Assembly (NCBI GenBank): GCA_040388625.1
Contig: JAZKBK010000006.1
Location: forward strand, 358,702-422,701
From: Gemmatimonadota bacterium
GTDB taxonomy: Bacteria; Gemmatimonadota; Gemmatimonadetes; Gemmatimonadales; Gemmatimonadaceae
Length of the DNA stretch: 64,000 bases
Direction: 5' to 3'
A program made the position numbers and the translations under genes. Under the pieces are notes generated by a model, which worked only from the letters and a program-made list of their open reading frames with translations, ran no database searches and was not told the origin of the DNA. This document shows positions 30,860 through 55,865 of the stretch, piece by piece. Each line of letters opens with the position of its first letter. The first letter of the stretch is position 1.

Positions 30860-30900
30860 GCTTTCGAAGATAACCCCGCGTTGGTACACTTTGCGCCTAT

Positions 30901-30932
30901 GTCCTTGCAGGACGGTGTGTTAGCTTCACACC
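30901..30932. promoter_or_regulatory. Two adjacent inverted repeats before the MarR gene
   Basis: GTCCT-TGC-AGGAC (30901-30913) and GGTGTG-N7-CACACC (30914-30932) abut each other and end one base before the MarR start codon. They also lie 42 bases from the divergent PBP start. They are candidate operators for the regulator itself. Confidence 0.4.
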
Positions 30933-30933
30933 C

Positions 30934-31428
30934 ATGGGTTCCAATACAAATCCCCCGGAGTCGGTAGCAAGTGCCCTCGTGGCGATCCGTCGCCTCGTCC
31001 GGACGCTTCGAACGACTGCCGTTTCGGTCGAGCGGGAAACCGGTCTGAGTACCGCTCAAACGTTCGTTCTGCAACTGTTGCTCGAAGCGCCTGCGGAGTC
31101 GATGAACGACCTCGCGGCGCGAACGTCCACAGACCAGAGCTCCGTGTCGGTGGTGGTCAGCCGGCTCGAGGCCAAGGGGCTCGTTTCCCGTCTCAACTCG
31201 GCCACTGACGCGCGGCGCACCCAGGTCGTCATAACGGCCGAAGGGACCGCACTCATGCACCGCAAGCCGCCCACGGTGCAGGAGCGACTCACCCGCGCAC
31301 TCTCGGCCATGCCTGCCGGCTCGCTCGGCCAGCTATCCAGTGAATTGAACAGCCTCGTCTCCCTGATGGGCGCCGATGAAGAACCCGCCACCCTGATCTT
31401 CGAAGATGACGCAGCCGGCAGCAGTTGA
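30934..31428 (+). CDS. MarR-family transcription regulator
   Basis: 164 aa. The winged helix is clear: TGLSTAQTFVLQLLLEAP, MNDLAARTSTDQSSVSVVVSRLEAKGLVSR with the wing DARRTQVVITAEG. An acidic tail follows. It overlaps the ClC channel gene by 23 bases, so it very probably regulates that gene, and possibly the divergent PBP. The ligand is unknown. Confidence 0.9.
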   Translation: MGSNTNPPESVASALVAIRRLVRTLRTTAVSVERETGLSTAQTFVLQLLLEAPAESMNDLAARTSTDQSSVSVVVSRLEAKGLVSRLNSATDARRTQVVITAEGTALMHRKPPTVQERLTRALSAMPAGSLGQLSSELNSLVSLMGADEEPATLIFEDDAAGSS

Positions 31429-48172: not shown

Positions 48173-49786
48173 TTACGACGTCGGTGTTCCGGCACGTTTG
48201 ATCGCGCGCCCTGCCAGCGCGCCGGTGTACGTTCCGCCGTCCACCGCGGGAACGCCGTTCACGAGTACGTAGCGCATGCCGACCGCCAGAAGCGTTGGCT
48301 GCTCGTATGTCGATTTGTCCGCAACGGTCTTCGGATCGAAGACTATGACGTCGGCATATTTCCCGACTGCAACCGTTCCGCGATCCTTGATTCCCAGCGT
48401 CTGCGCGGTGAGTGCGCTGCTCACGTGCACGGCCTGCGGAAGCGTGAGAACGTGACGCTTGTACACATACTCGCGCAGCTTTCTCGGGAACGTGCCGTAC
48501 TTTCTCGGATGACCGCCCGATCCGTCGGAGCAGGTGCTCACCCACGGCTGCTTCATGAAGTTGTCGATGTCGGAATCCTTCATGTTGAACGACGCTACAC
48601 TCGCGTCGCCGCTCTTCACTATCTCTATCGCCTCGTCGATCGGCGACCGGTTGTGCGCCCTGGCAGCCTGATCAAGTGTCCTGCCACGGAGGCCAGCGGT
48701 CGCACCGGTATCGCGCTCGGTCGTGATGACCAGCGCAGCAGCTCCGCCACGCCGCCGCAGATTGTTCTGCATATCCGCGACGAGCCGCGCATGTGTCGGC
48801 GCATCTGCAATGCGCGCGAGCAGCGAGTCGCGCCCACCCTCCTCGGCCCAGCGCGGCAGAAGCGACGCACCGACGCTGGTACCGGACGCGGTATACGGAT
48901 ACTGACACGCGACAACATCGACACCTGCCCTGCGCGCATTGTTGATGAGGGCGATCACTGTGTCGCTCTGACCCCACACGTCGGTGCCCAGCGCCTTGAT
49001 GTGCGAGATGTGGATGCGCATGTGCGCCTCGCGGCCGATGCGGATCGCCTCATTTACGGCGCCGATGAGGCCGACCGTGTAGGAGCTCTCGTCGCGGAGA
49101 TGCGTGTCGTAGATGCCACCATGCTGTGCCGCAACCTTGGACAGCTCGATCACTTCCTCGGTCGAGGCGTAGCTTCCGGGTGCGTAGTAAAGACCCGTTG
49201 AAATACCAAGTGCGCCGCCGTCCATTCCACGCGCCACGAGCGCGCGCATGCTGTCCATCTGTGCAGGCGTCGGCTTTGCGTCGGACATTCCGAGCACGTG
49301 TCCGCGCACCGATCCCTCACCGATGAACATCGCGGCGTTGGTCCCGATTCCCTGCTGCTGCCACCTGTCGAGCGTCTTTCCCACCTCGAGCGGACTGGAT
49401 CCGTCGTTGCCGGTCATGACGGTCGTCACGCCCTGCATGAGATAGTTGACGTTACCATGTCGCGCGGGACTGGACAGATCGGACTCCGCATGAGTATGCG
49501 AGTCGATGAAGCCGGGCGCGACGATGAGGCCCCTGGCGTCGATCGTACGGGTGGCGTGAATGTGCGCGGCCGTCGCATTCCCAACGAAAACGATGCGATC
49601 GCCGCGAATCGCGACGTCCGCCGCTCGACCAGGACTGCCGGTTCCGTCCACAACTGTGCCACCACGGACGAGAATGTCCGCCGAGTCGGTCGCTTGTGCG
49701 TGTGCGACTGATGCGGAGCCGGACGCAGCAGCGACGCTCGCACAGATTACGGACGCAAGCAGAGTTGCAGGGCGAAAATTCGGCAT
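48173..49786 (-). CDS. N-acyl-D-amino-acid deacylase family amidohydrolase, exported
   Basis: 537 aa. Signal peptide ending near VAHAQA, then a D-aminoacylase-type barrel: FIDSHTHAESDL (first two metal His), GVTTVMTGNDGSS, YDTHLRDES, HISHIKALG, and the catalytic Asp in CSDGSGGHPRKYGTF. In characterised D-aminoacylases the GN(C)G position is a zinc-ligand Cys; here it is Asp. The enzyme should release D-amino acids from N-acyl-D-amino acids, but with an altered metal site. ATG 49786 starts a clean signal peptide; the frame extends to 49942. Confidence 0.85.
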   Translation of the reverse strand: MPNFRPATLLASVICASVAAASGSASVAHAQATDSADILVRGGTVVDGTGSPGRAADVAIRGDRIVFVGNATAAHIHATRTIDARGLIVAPGFIDSHTHAESDLSSPARHGNVNYLMQGVTTVMTGNDGSSPLEVGKTLDRWQQQGIGTNAAMFIGEGSVRGHVLGMSDAKPTPAQMDSMRALVARGMDGGALGISTGLYYAPGSYASTEEVIELSKVAAQHGGIYDTHLRDESSYTVGLIGAVNEAIRIGREAHMRIHISHIKALGTDVWGQSDTVIALINNARRAGVDVVACQYPYTASGTSVGASLLPRWAEEGGRDSLLARIADAPTHARLVADMQNNLRRRGGAAALVITTERDTGATAGLRGRTLDQAARAHNRSPIDEAIEIVKSGDASVASFNMKDSDIDNFMKQPWVSTCSDGSGGHPRKYGTFPRKLREYVYKRHVLTLPQAVHVSSALTAQTLGIKDRGTVAVGKYADVIVFDPKTVADKSTYEQPTLLAVGMRYVLVNGVPAVDGGTYTGALAGRAIKRAGTPTS

Positions 49787-52590: not shown

Positions 52591-53631
52591 TCATCCGCGG
52601 ATCTTGCTCATCCAATCTGTGATCGACGATGGGAGGAACATGTTGTCCGAGATTTCGGCGATCTCCTCGGCTTCCTTCCATCGTTCCTCGAGAGCGGCGA
52701 GCTCGCCTTCGAGCGCGCGCCGCTCGTCGTCTTCGTGCGTCATCATCTCGAGCGCGAGACGCGCTTCGAGTGGGATGGTGGAGAGGCGGCCCTGTGCTGT
52801 CGCGCTCCAACTCGTCTTCATTGCGAATGAAGCAGCCGTATCCAGGAGTCGGGTTGCATTCCCCGCTTGCTCGACGAGTTCGACTGCCGTCTGGACATCG
52901 CGCTTCGTTCCACCGCGACCGTTTATCGCGGGAAGAAGGGCGGCAAGTGCCGGGAGCGCGTCTCGCGCGTCCAGGTTTACTGTCGGCCCAGCGTCGATCC
53001 GCCGAGAATTCATCCGGCGCCACTTGTGACTGCCTTGGGGAAGCGAAAGTTGCCAGCCTGATTCGGTCGATCGAATGATCTTTGCGTGCGGCAACTGTGC
53101 GCGAGTGACTTTCACAATTCCATTCGGTGTTGGAACTTTCGCGACGACGCGTCGCCCCCGTACTGCGTTGAAACTATTGAACGCCACACTGTAAAGGCTG
53201 GCTCCGCCGCCTGCGAAGAGTCCAACCGAAACCGCTCCCGACACGAGCACGCCGACAGCGACGACGCCAGCTCCGGCCATGATGTAATGCCGCTGGCGCC
53301 TCTTACCGAACTGATCCCCGTATCTCCACGCCGCCATTTCGGGGCGCTGCGGATCTCCAACGCGAACGAGTTCCAAACCTTCGGCAACTCGCGCGAGTCC
53401 GATGTGTTCCGTGGACATGCGCAACTTCGTGTCGCGAAACAATCGCTCGCACTCTTCGATCGCTTCCCATCGCTCTTCGATGGGAGTGAGGTTCCATCGC
53501 TCGCACGAGCGACACACTACCCACAATCTGCCCTTCTCTCCATCGAACGCCAGGCGGCGTCCGATGGGGAAATGCTCGACTACCTCGTTCGCGCCGAGGT
53601 TGTTGTGGCAGAAGAGGCAGGTCGAGTACAT
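52591..53631 (-). CDS. Zinc-ribbon membrane protein of unknown function
   Basis: 346 aa. An N-terminal four-Cys zinc ribbon (Cys5, Cys8, Cys40, Cys43) is followed by a soluble stretch, a hydrophobic region of about 40 residues near 115-150 (one or two membrane segments), and a long charged C-terminal part with probable coiled coil at the end (EDDERRALEGELAALEERWKEAEE). It has no enzyme signature that I can name. The amidohydrolase gene ends three bases upstream and the AAA ATPase follows, so it is likely a partner of one of them. Confidence 0.72.
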   Translation of the reverse strand: MYSTCLFCHNNLGANEVVEHFPIGRRLAFDGEKGRLWVVCRSCERWNLTPIEERWEAIEECERLFRDTKLRMSTEHIGLARVAEGLELVRVGDPQRPEMAAWRYGDQFGKRRQRHYIMAGAGVVAVGVLVSGAVSVGLFAGGGASLYSVAFNSFNAVRGRRVVAKVPTPNGIVKVTRAQLPHAKIIRSTESGWQLSLPQGSHKWRRMNSRRIDAGPTVNLDARDALPALAALLPAINGRGGTKRDVQTAVELVEQAGNATRLLDTAASFAMKTSWSATAQGRLSTIPLEARLALEMMTHEDDERRALEGELAALEERWKEAEEIAEISDNMFLPSSITDWMSKIRG

Positions 53632-53634
53632 GCG

Positions 53635-55581
53635 CTATTTGCGTTCGTAGACACTCTTGCCACCGATGTACGTCGAGAGGACACTGGTCTTGAGGATGTC
53701 GCTCGCAGGTATCGTCATGATGTCCTGATCGAGCACGGTGAAGTCCGCGTACTTGCCGGGGGTGATGGAGCCCATCACGTGCTCCTGAAATCCGGCATAC
53801 GCAGCCCAGATCGTCATCGACTTGAGAGCTTCATCGCGCGTCATCCGTTGTTCCGGATACCAGCCGCCGTCGGGCCAGCCGGTGGAATCGGCGCGCGTTA
53901 TCGAGCTGTGAAAGGTGATGAGCGGATTGACGTTTTCAACGGGAAAATCCGTGCCGTTCGGAACGATTACGCCGGTGTTGAGCAGCGAGCGCCACACGTA
54001 TGCACCGCGAATGCGCGACGGACCGAGTCTGTCCTCGGCCCAGCGCATGTCGCTGGTCTGGTGACTTGCCTGCATGCTCGGGATCACTCCGAGCTGAGCG
54101 AAACGCGGGATGTCGGCGGGATCGAGGATCTGTGCATGCTCGATTCGAAAGCGGTGGTCGGCGGTCGGCACGGCCTTGAGCGCGCCTTCGTACGCGTCGA
54201 GCGCGTTTCTGTTGCCACGGTCTCCGATCGCGTGCGTCGCGACCTGAAACCCGTGTCGCAGCGCCGACGTCGCAACACTCTGCAGGTGTGCTTCGGTCGA
54301 GACGAGCAGCCCAGTGTTGCCGGGATCGTCGGAATACGGAGACAGCAGTGCAGCGCCACGCGAGCCGAGTGCACCGTCAGCGTAGAGCTTGATCGAGCGC
54401 ACCCACAGGTGGCCGCCGTACAACTCGCTGCGCGGACCGATGGAGTAGTAGTGCGCGATCGCCGCGCTGTCGTCGGCTATGAGTATGTAGCCGCGGAGAT
54501 CGAAGTTGCCCTTCTTCGCCATGGACTCCATGACGTCGATGATCCTGCGCGGCTCGCCCGGATCGTGGATCGAGACGAGGCCCCAGCGGTGCACGTCGGC
54601 GATCGCGGCCGATATCGCCTGTTCCAGCTGCGCATCGGTTGGAGGTGGGACGGCGCGGCCGATCAGATCCTGTGCATTGTCGACGAATACACCGGTCGGG
54701 TTGCCGCTGGCGTCGCGCACGATGCGACCACCGGACGGATCCTTCGTCGCAGCGGTGATCTTCGCCGCTTCCATCGCGCGCGCGTTGGCGAGCAATGCGT
54801 GCCCGTCGATGCGCTCCAGCACGACCGGATTGTCGGGGAACGCGCGCGTCAGCGCATCACTGGTCGGAAACTGTTTGGAGGCCCAGCGATTCTGATCCCA
54901 ACCGTGTCCTTTTATCCACTCGCCCTTCGGAACCGCGCCCGCATGCTTCTTTGTTCTGTCGATGACTTCGTCGTACGACAGACTGCCGGCGAGATCGGCT
55001 TCGTGCAAGGTTTCACCGAGCTCGGTCAGGTGACCATGCGCGTCGGCGAGGCCTGGAAGCACCGTTGCACCGTGCAGGTCGATGACACGTGTGTTGGGCC
55101 CCTTGAGCGTCATCGCCTCGCTCGTCGATCCGACGAACGCGAAGATGCCATCGCGCACGGCGAACGCCTGCGCTGCAGGACGGGTGTCGTCGACCGTGTA
55201 GATGTGTCCGCCGGTAACTATGAGATCGGCGGGCTTTGGCGCTGACACCGTTCCCTGTGCGACCAGCGAAGACGCGCAGAGCAGCAACAATCCGGCGAGT
55301 GTTCCCCGCTTCGCCTCGGTCTTGAAAAGCTTCACGATTCGTTTTGCCAGTGGGTGGTTCAAGGAAATTCTGTACAACACGTTGCGGCCATCGCCGACGC
55401 GCTCGACGACGCCTTCCTTTTCGAGGCGGATGATCGCCTCGCGTACCGCGGGCCTGCTGATCTTCGTTTCGCGCGCGATGCGCGGCGGAGCGTGCTCTCC
55501 TCCCGGTGATAGCACGCGCAGCACACGTACTGCTGCCTGTGTGCCGAGTATCTGATCCAGCGGATGCGGCCTGGGAGCCAC
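53635..55581 (-). CDS. Winged-helix domain joined to an exported YtcJ-like amidohydrolase
   Basis: 648 aa in one frame. Residues 5-82 are a winged helix (AAVRVLRVL, PPRIARETKISRPAVREAIIRLEKEGVVERV). Residues 83-110 look like a complete signal peptide (VKLFKTEAKR, then GTLAGLLLLCASSLVAQ). The rest is an amidohydrolase barrel with DAHGHLTELGE, ATHAIGDRGNR, RIEHAQI and GTDFPVENVNP. A GTG at 55335 would start exactly at the signal peptide, giving a separate periplasmic enzyme of 566 aa. GTG 55581 sits two bases after the previous stop, supporting the long form too. Confidence 0.85.
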   Translation of the reverse strand: MAPRPHPLDQILGTQAAVRVLRVLSPGGEHAPPRIARETKISRPAVREAIIRLEKEGVVERVGDGRNVLYRISLNHPLAKRIVKLFKTEAKRGTLAGLLLLCASSLVAQGTVSAPKPADLIVTGGHIYTVDDTRPAAQAFAVRDGIFAFVGSTSEAMTLKGPNTRVIDLHGATVLPGLADAHGHLTELGETLHEADLAGSLSYDEVIDRTKKHAGAVPKGEWIKGHGWDQNRWASKQFPTSDALTRAFPDNPVVLERIDGHALLANARAMEAAKITAATKDPSGGRIVRDASGNPTGVFVDNAQDLIGRAVPPPTDAQLEQAISAAIADVHRWGLVSIHDPGEPRRIIDVMESMAKKGNFDLRGYILIADDSAAIAHYYSIGPRSELYGGHLWVRSIKLYADGALGSRGAALLSPYSDDPGNTGLLVSTEAHLQSVATSALRHGFQVATHAIGDRGNRNALDAYEGALKAVPTADHRFRIEHAQILDPADIPRFAQLGVIPSMQASHQTSDMRWAEDRLGPSRIRGAYVWRSLLNTGVIVPNGTDFPVENVNPLITFHSSITRADSTGWPDGGWYPEQRMTRDEALKSMTIWAAYAGFQEHVMGSITPGKYADFTVLDQDIMTIPASDILKTSVLSTYIGGKSVYERK

Positions 55582-55583
55582 GG

Positions 55584-55865
55584 TTATCGCGGCTCCTGCG
55601 ATGAGCGAATGGTCAGATGACCGTCAGGCGCGACAGTCAGCGTCACGTGACTTCCCACGACCGCTCCGGGAGGAAGCGTAAGAAGCTGTCCCGCTCCGTC
55701 GATTACCCTGGTGTCTGCGCGCGCCATCTTGAGAATCTCCGCCGCCATCCCCACAACTGCAAGTTTTCCGTCCCCGATGCCGAGCGCCGTCGCCCAGGGG
55801 CGCGCGGGATTGCCGGTGCTCACGCGGGCATTCGTTACGATGACCGACAGGCCGGCGCCGGTCAC
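55584..55865 (-). CDS. 93-aa amidohydrolase-like composite domain
   Basis: The sequence VIVTNARVSTGNPARPWATALGIGDGKLAVVG then TRVIDGAGQLLTLPPGAVVGSHVTLTV matches the small beta-sandwich that normally flanks the metal barrel of amidohydrolases, but there is no barrel and no metal ligand. It is either a remnant or a free-standing domain. GTG at 55865 overlaps the TerC-like stop (GTGA). Its stop lies two bases before the next gene, which is itself an amidohydrolase. Confidence 0.6.
   Translation of the reverse strand: MTGAGLSVIVTNARVSTGNPARPWATALGIGDGKLAVVGMAAEILKMARADTRVIDGAGQLLTLPPGAVVGSHVTLTVAPDGHLTIRSSQEPR

Follow-up and report, generated by a model that had tools for sequence, protein, structure and literature searches.

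The stretch of DNA analysed here (the window, 64,000 nucleotides from a Gemmatimonadota bacterium) contains a minus-strand gene whose single reading frame joins a winged-helix DNA-binding domain, a signal-peptide-like segment and an amidohydrolase. The gene, its parts and its two neighbours are listed below by window coordinates.

53635..55581, minus strand: fused gene (winged helix, signal segment and amidohydrolase), 648 aa, GTG start, TAG stop
55297..55581, minus strand: winged-helix DNA-binding domain with C-terminal helix, residues 1-95 (Pfam MarR_2, AlphaFold model, Foldseek, dN/dS, orthologue in the congener G001)
55417..55455, minus strand: presumed recognition helix, residues 43-55 (helix from AlphaFold/DSSP, role suggested by the fold)
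55333..55335, minus strand: internal GTG at residue 83, proposed alternative start (tested by Shine-Dalgarno, synonymous sites and mRNA structure)
55258..55335, minus strand: signal-peptide-like segment, residues 83-108 (VKLFKTEAKRGTLAGLLLLCASSLVA), with putative cleavage at A108/Q109 (hydrophobicity, A|Q end)
53638..55257, minus strand: mature-type Amidohydro_3 (YtcJ-like) metal-dependent hydrolase, residues 109-648 (Pfam, metal-site residues, nearest PDB entries)
55584..55865, minus strand: preceding gene, encoding a 93-aa amidohydrolase N-terminal beta-domain without the barrel; TAA stop 2 nt before GTG 55581
52591..53631, minus strand: following gene, encoding a zinc-ribbon-like 346-aa protein; start 3 nt after the fusion's stop

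The minus-strand frame is open from 55581 to 53635 for 648 codons. Along the chain, the winged helix (residues 1-95) is followed by the signal-peptide-like segment (approximately residues 83-108) and then by the Amidohydro_3 enzyme. Pfam places MarR_2 at residues 15-65 (E 8.6e-7, 29.5 bits against a cut-off of 27) and Amidohydro_3 (PF07969) at residues 165-645 (E 3.6e-104, profile positions 1-472 of 472). The genus is represented by four genomes: that of the window (G000), G001, G002, and G003. The same fusion is present in G002 (98% identical) and G003 (85% identical), while the fourth species, G001, has the winged helix alone. Its recurrence in two further species at these identities means that it cannot be put down to chance or a sequencing slip, and the in-frame joining of a winged helix to an exported amidohydrolase is confirmed as a genuine gene fusion. 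The initial annotation had described this order of parts, a GTG at 55581 coupled to the previous gene, whose stop lies 2 nt ahead, and an internal in-frame GTG at 55335; all of these are present as described. An erased stop between two genes, through assembly or sequencing error, has in its favour that the congener records are Gemmatimonadetes MAGs or multi-contig assemblies, and that a scaffold gap of two Ns interrupts the winged-helix coding part on the contig of G003 (both flanks are present). Since three assemblies, one of them at 85% identity, have the same open junction, we regard such an artefact as extremely improbable.

Both halves of the gene are under strong purifying selection. Against G003, the NG86 dN/dS is approximately 0.06 for the winged helix (0.054/0.87) and approximately 0.07 for the enzyme (0.093/1.33), and against G002 the winged helix has zero amino-acid changes at a dS of 0.12. 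Comparison of the fused winged helix with the stand-alone copy of G001 gives a dN/dS of 0.06-0.08, so that the fused domain is as constrained as the separate one. These low ratios indicate that both halves are most likely translated and needed. They also argue against a merger of two genes by chance in which the winged helix has become a passenger that no longer binds DNA. Such a merger would fit the occurrence of the fusion in one genus only, the functioning of the enzyme orthologues without the domain, and the separability of the halves seen in G001, but it sits poorly with selection on the fused winged helix equal to that on the enzyme and on the stand-alone copy, and we consider it very unlikely.

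By sequence the enzyme belongs fully to the Amidohydro_3 family, as it matches the whole profile and has the metal site. Residues H182, H184, K398, H450, H482, and D545 are the same in all 29 aligned sequences; from knowledge of the family we take them to be the metal-site residues (HxH, K, H, H, D). With this site invariant, the amidohydrolase is probably catalytically active. The nearest solved relatives, 3igh and 3icj, are two uncharacterised Pyrococcus hydrolases with 26% identity, and the NCBIfam models listed for the enzyme all score far below their cut-offs. The name AepA is tied to exoenzyme regulation; a literature search for a link between the enzyme and that name gave no useful match. 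The enzyme most resembles the secreted Amidohydro_3 (YtcJ-like) hydrolases of Gemmatimonadota, with which it shares the whole enzyme, the metal-site residues, the signal-peptide core, and the A|Q end, at approximately 55-68% identity.

By both profile and fold, the winged helix belongs with the MarR/ArsR-type domains. An AlphaFold model of residues 1-95, built with 14 related sequences, is a winged helix with a mean pLDDT of 82, comprising helices 15-24, 32-39, and 43-55, strands 59-62 and 69-72, and a C-terminal helix 79-94; by DSSP, helix 43-55 is followed by a strand-wing-strand element (59-72). Its best PDB matches in Foldseek are MarR and ArsR regulators (E approximately 1e-4). In a model of the full-length protein most of the enzyme has a pLDDT above 90, and the winged-helix part is of low confidence because the alignment there is shallow, containing congeners only. 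No Trans_reg_C (OmpR-type) family is found among the 23 Pfam families matched at E<=1, which include MarR_2, GntR, and IclR types. The fold is that of MarR and ArsR/SmtB regulators, a comparison made by fold alone, although the domain of the fusion differs from these in being single and short, with a C-terminal helix that would run into a membrane signal. By analogy with this fold, the winged-helix half is predicted to bind DNA, probably as a dimer. That its sequence is conserved and that it occurs on its own in G001 are consistent with a regulatory role. No operator site or target gene for it was identified.

Relatives of the enzyme are present in 393 of 395 genomes of the phylum, and among the matches listed the winged-helix part was aligned only in the congeners. 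Ten alignments beginning before residue 82 (in G105, G304, G300, G357, G058, G055, G005, G231, G011, and G046) were read as candidates for further fusions and rejected, each having an upstream open frame or a signal peptide and no winged helix; G291, which aligned from residue 64, was left out. The initial annotation had asked whether homologues keep the winged helix, and outside the genus none of the enzyme orthologues examined has it. At E<=1e-9, a search with the winged helix itself found matches in 34 of 395 genomes; except for the copies of the four congeners, these lie in frames of 176-361 residues. A nucleotidyltransferase domain scores above the Pfam cut-offs in two of the three such relatives scanned (L010 and L029) and is absent, by Pfam, from both the fusion and the 100-aa protein of G001. 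These Gemmatimonadota proteins, which include the nucleotidyltransferase fusions, have a homologous winged helix and an HPL...LF.AEA linker helix (approximately 28-48% identity), whereas here the partner of the winged helix is either nothing, as in G001, or an exported amidohydrolase. Since winged helix and enzyme are each found apart, the fusion appears to have arisen within or just before the genus. Among the orthologues examined it seems restricted to this one genus of soil Gemmatimonadota, known from MAGs, and no fusion of this kind in Gemmatimonadetes came up in a literature search.

In G001 the winged helix is encoded by a separate 100-aa gene at the same operon position, 87% identical to the fused domain and followed directly by the same downstream gene as in the fused species. 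No orthologue of the enzyme was found in G001, the best match, located elsewhere, being a 45% paralogue. The three fused enzymes form one clade within the family orthologues (100/100). In a tree of rpoB and partial rpoC, G001 groups with G003 (84/88), a placement by which the fusion would be ancestral in the genus and the enzyme would have been lost in G001; the AU test does not reject the alternative (p 0.14). A tree of the downstream zinc-ribbon protein does not resolve which state is older. The tail of the G001 protein (KPS-stop) was also compared with the C-terminus of the enzyme (ERK-stop) for a deletion scar, and no clear scar was seen.

The region between the two domains, KRGTLAGLLLLCASSLVA|Q, consists of a charged stretch, a 16-residue hydrophobic run and a signal-peptidase-like site. 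Its KD19 hydrophobicity (1.67) is like that of the signal peptides of the enzyme orthologues. The segment ends in LVA|Q in the window and LSA|Q in G003, and an A|Q end is common to many orthologues. All three fused species have the junction ...FKTEAKRG(T/A)LAGLLLLCASSL(V/S)AQ. The stand-alone protein of G001 shares its sequence with the fusions as far as KRGTLA and ends ...FKAEAKRGTLAKPS-stop, where the fusions continue ...FKTEAKRGTLAGLLLLCASSLVAQG and G003 ...KRGALAGLLLLCASSLSAQG. Given this shared sequence, the charged n-region most likely comes from the winged-helix gene. The orthologous enzymes have their own Met, a charged n-region, a hydrophobic core and mostly A-Q at the end. In the fusion, ATG, GTG, or TTG codons upstream of the hydrophobic core occur only within the winged-helix coding part, and two TTG codons inside the core (55290 and 55287) would leave no n-region. 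With no start of its own upstream of the core, the enzyme appears to have lost its start codon and to depend on the winged-helix frame. The apparent absence of this codon and the presence of the winged helix set the protein apart from the Amidohydro_3 relatives examined outside the genus.

Translation probably begins at GTG 55581. The stop-NN-GTG arrangement there is kept in G000, G001, G002, and G003, though the preceding gene of G001 is a different one. A Shine-Dalgarno interaction of -6.6 is predicted at this start in G000 and G002, whereas G003 and G001, with little or no such interaction, would rely on coupling alone. The initial annotation suggested that one gene might yield two products, a DNA-binding form and an exported enzyme, or that the fusion may sense export. 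Two products could come about through two starts, with a winged-helix or full-length form made from GTG 55581 and a conventional pre-enzyme (MKLFKTEAKRGTLAGLLLL...) from GTG 55335. The internal GTG is conserved at residue 83 in all three fused species, would provide a good signal peptide, and is surrounded by weakly structured mRNA (-6.0 kcal/mol, 4th percentile of the gene). G001 lacks the enzyme yet has this GTG too, with a local mRNA structure of -5.9, so neither feature is an adaptation for the enzyme. No Shine-Dalgarno sequence was found at 55335 (-1.5 kcal/mol, against a random-position mean of -2.7). Synonymous changes between the window and G003 are as frequent around 55335 as expected, with no depletion beyond shuffles. 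Because Shine-Dalgarno sequences are also missing from many operon genes, several neighbouring ones among them, these tests are weak; as they stand they lend little support to internal initiation at GTG 55335, and we judge a two-start gene unlikely. The initial interpretation is supported in part: selection acts on both halves of the fusion, and two products could instead arise after translation, through a signal peptidase cut at LVA|Q. Two observations had been named that would speak against the idea, homologues without the N-terminal domain and a lack of translation from 55581; homologues outside the genus do lack the domain, while selection and the conserved coupled start point to translation from 55581.

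The reading we prefer, though with confidence only about even, is that a single precursor is made from 55581, with a winged helix that stays in the cytoplasm and an enzyme that is exported and cut free at LVA|Q. In this scheme, the two genes were joined at the signal peptide, where the start codon and n-region of the enzyme gave way to the charged C-terminal tail of a small winged-helix regulator. Translation from GTG 55581, coupled to the preceding gene, would yield one precursor, whose winged helix would fold in the cytoplasm. Hydrophobic export signals that follow a cytoplasmic domain insert with the N-terminus inside. The KR-GTLAGLLLLCASSLVA segment would accordingly insert in this orientation and deliver the hydrolase to the periplasm. 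The site LVA|Q (LSA|Q in G003) is where signal peptidase I would then most likely act, releasing the enzyme into the periplasm, while the winged helix would stay attached to a short membrane anchor. The anchored half would regulate by binding DNA, probably as a dimer. Of this scheme, the start site, the topology, the cleavage, the binding of DNA, the regulatory role, and the substrate are what we infer. Cutting is expected because the 16-residue core and the LVA|Q or LSA|Q end are like those of the orthologues' cleavable signal peptides.

The layout resembles that of ToxR-type membrane regulators, and the fusion looks both recent and functional. ToxR has a DNA-binding domain, a hydrophobic segment and a periplasmic domain in one natural chain (PMC5936718). 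In the TOXCAT chimaera, the ToxR DNA-binding domain was joined through a 13-residue hydrophobic segment to MalE, which was functional in the periplasm (PMC9742436). Like ToxR and CadC, one-component regulators, the fusion has an N-terminal winged helix, a single hydrophobic segment and a large C-terminal domain that is predicted to be periplasmic. It may be an uncleaved regulator of this kind, anchored permanently by the hydrophobic segment, with the amidohydrolase as periplasmic input and with dimerisation of the winged helix altered by binding of substrate or product. The N-in order of parts suits such a regulator, as does the sufficiency of 13 hydrophobic residues in TOXCAT, and the full-length model has a single helix (77-103) running from the winged helix into the segment, at low confidence. 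The winged helix, however, is of MarR/ArsR rather than OmpR/ToxR type, the hydrophobic run is only 16 residues long and has a signal-peptidase-type end, and the periplasmic part is a complete hydrolase whose intact metal site would be superfluous in a pure sensor. By sequence the fusion falls outside the ToxR family, and it would work in a ToxR-like manner only if left uncut, which we think improbable.

A further proposal builds on the preferred reading of an exported and cut enzyme: export and cutting of the amidohydrolase would set whether the winged helix is tethered or freed, and the cell would thereby read enzyme export, or substrate, at a promoter. Because the segment has the character of a cleaved signal peptide, the link between enzyme and winged helix may carry no signal if cutting is efficient, and we hold this proposal to be quite doubtful. 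Should the preferred reading hold, a DNA-binding protein has become linked to an exported enzyme by means of the enzyme's own export signal. It would be a natural counterpart of TOXCAT, with the same order of parts, although TOXCAT is engineered and has a transmembrane segment rather than a signal peptide. It would also represent a simple route from a secreted enzyme to a membrane-anchored regulator, a step that is directly comparable because fused and separate states occur among the congeners. The weight of this is limited by the confinement of the fusion to one genus known from MAGs and by a regulatory role that we infer.

Several features of the surrounding operon and of other loci were also recorded. 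The 93-aa gene preceding the fusion overlaps the stop of a TerC-family gene and encodes no catalytic barrel. All four congeners retain it, with NG86 dN/dS values of 0.13 (G003), 0.24 (G001), and 0.54 (G002), and its product weakly matches the 81-aa PDB entry 3ggm. A comparable locus in another genome (L134, G020:C18, approximately 30899-31282, minus strand) has N- and C-terminal amidohydrolase pieces joined directly in a 171-aa frame, again with the barrel absent. In the G001 operon (L059, G001:C38:183000-196000), the 93-aa gene and the winged helix are separated by a 278-aa gene, and the zinc-ribbon gene is present as a tandem duplicate. The 3-nt spacing ahead of the zinc-ribbon gene is also present in G003 and in the enzyme-less G001. 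The 346-aa protein encoded by this gene has a zinc-ribbon-like N-terminus (CLFC...CRSC) and no Pfam or NCBIfam family above cut-off; it occurs in 30 of 36 genomes searched, some of which have several copies (nine matches in G018, split pieces counted). Finally, a second amidohydrolase-type gene (593-codon frame) lies approximately 4 kb beyond the fusion on the minus strand (G000:C6:408188-408451, approximately window 49487-49750), and G002 has a comparable gene at a similar distance with a signal-peptide-like N-terminus.
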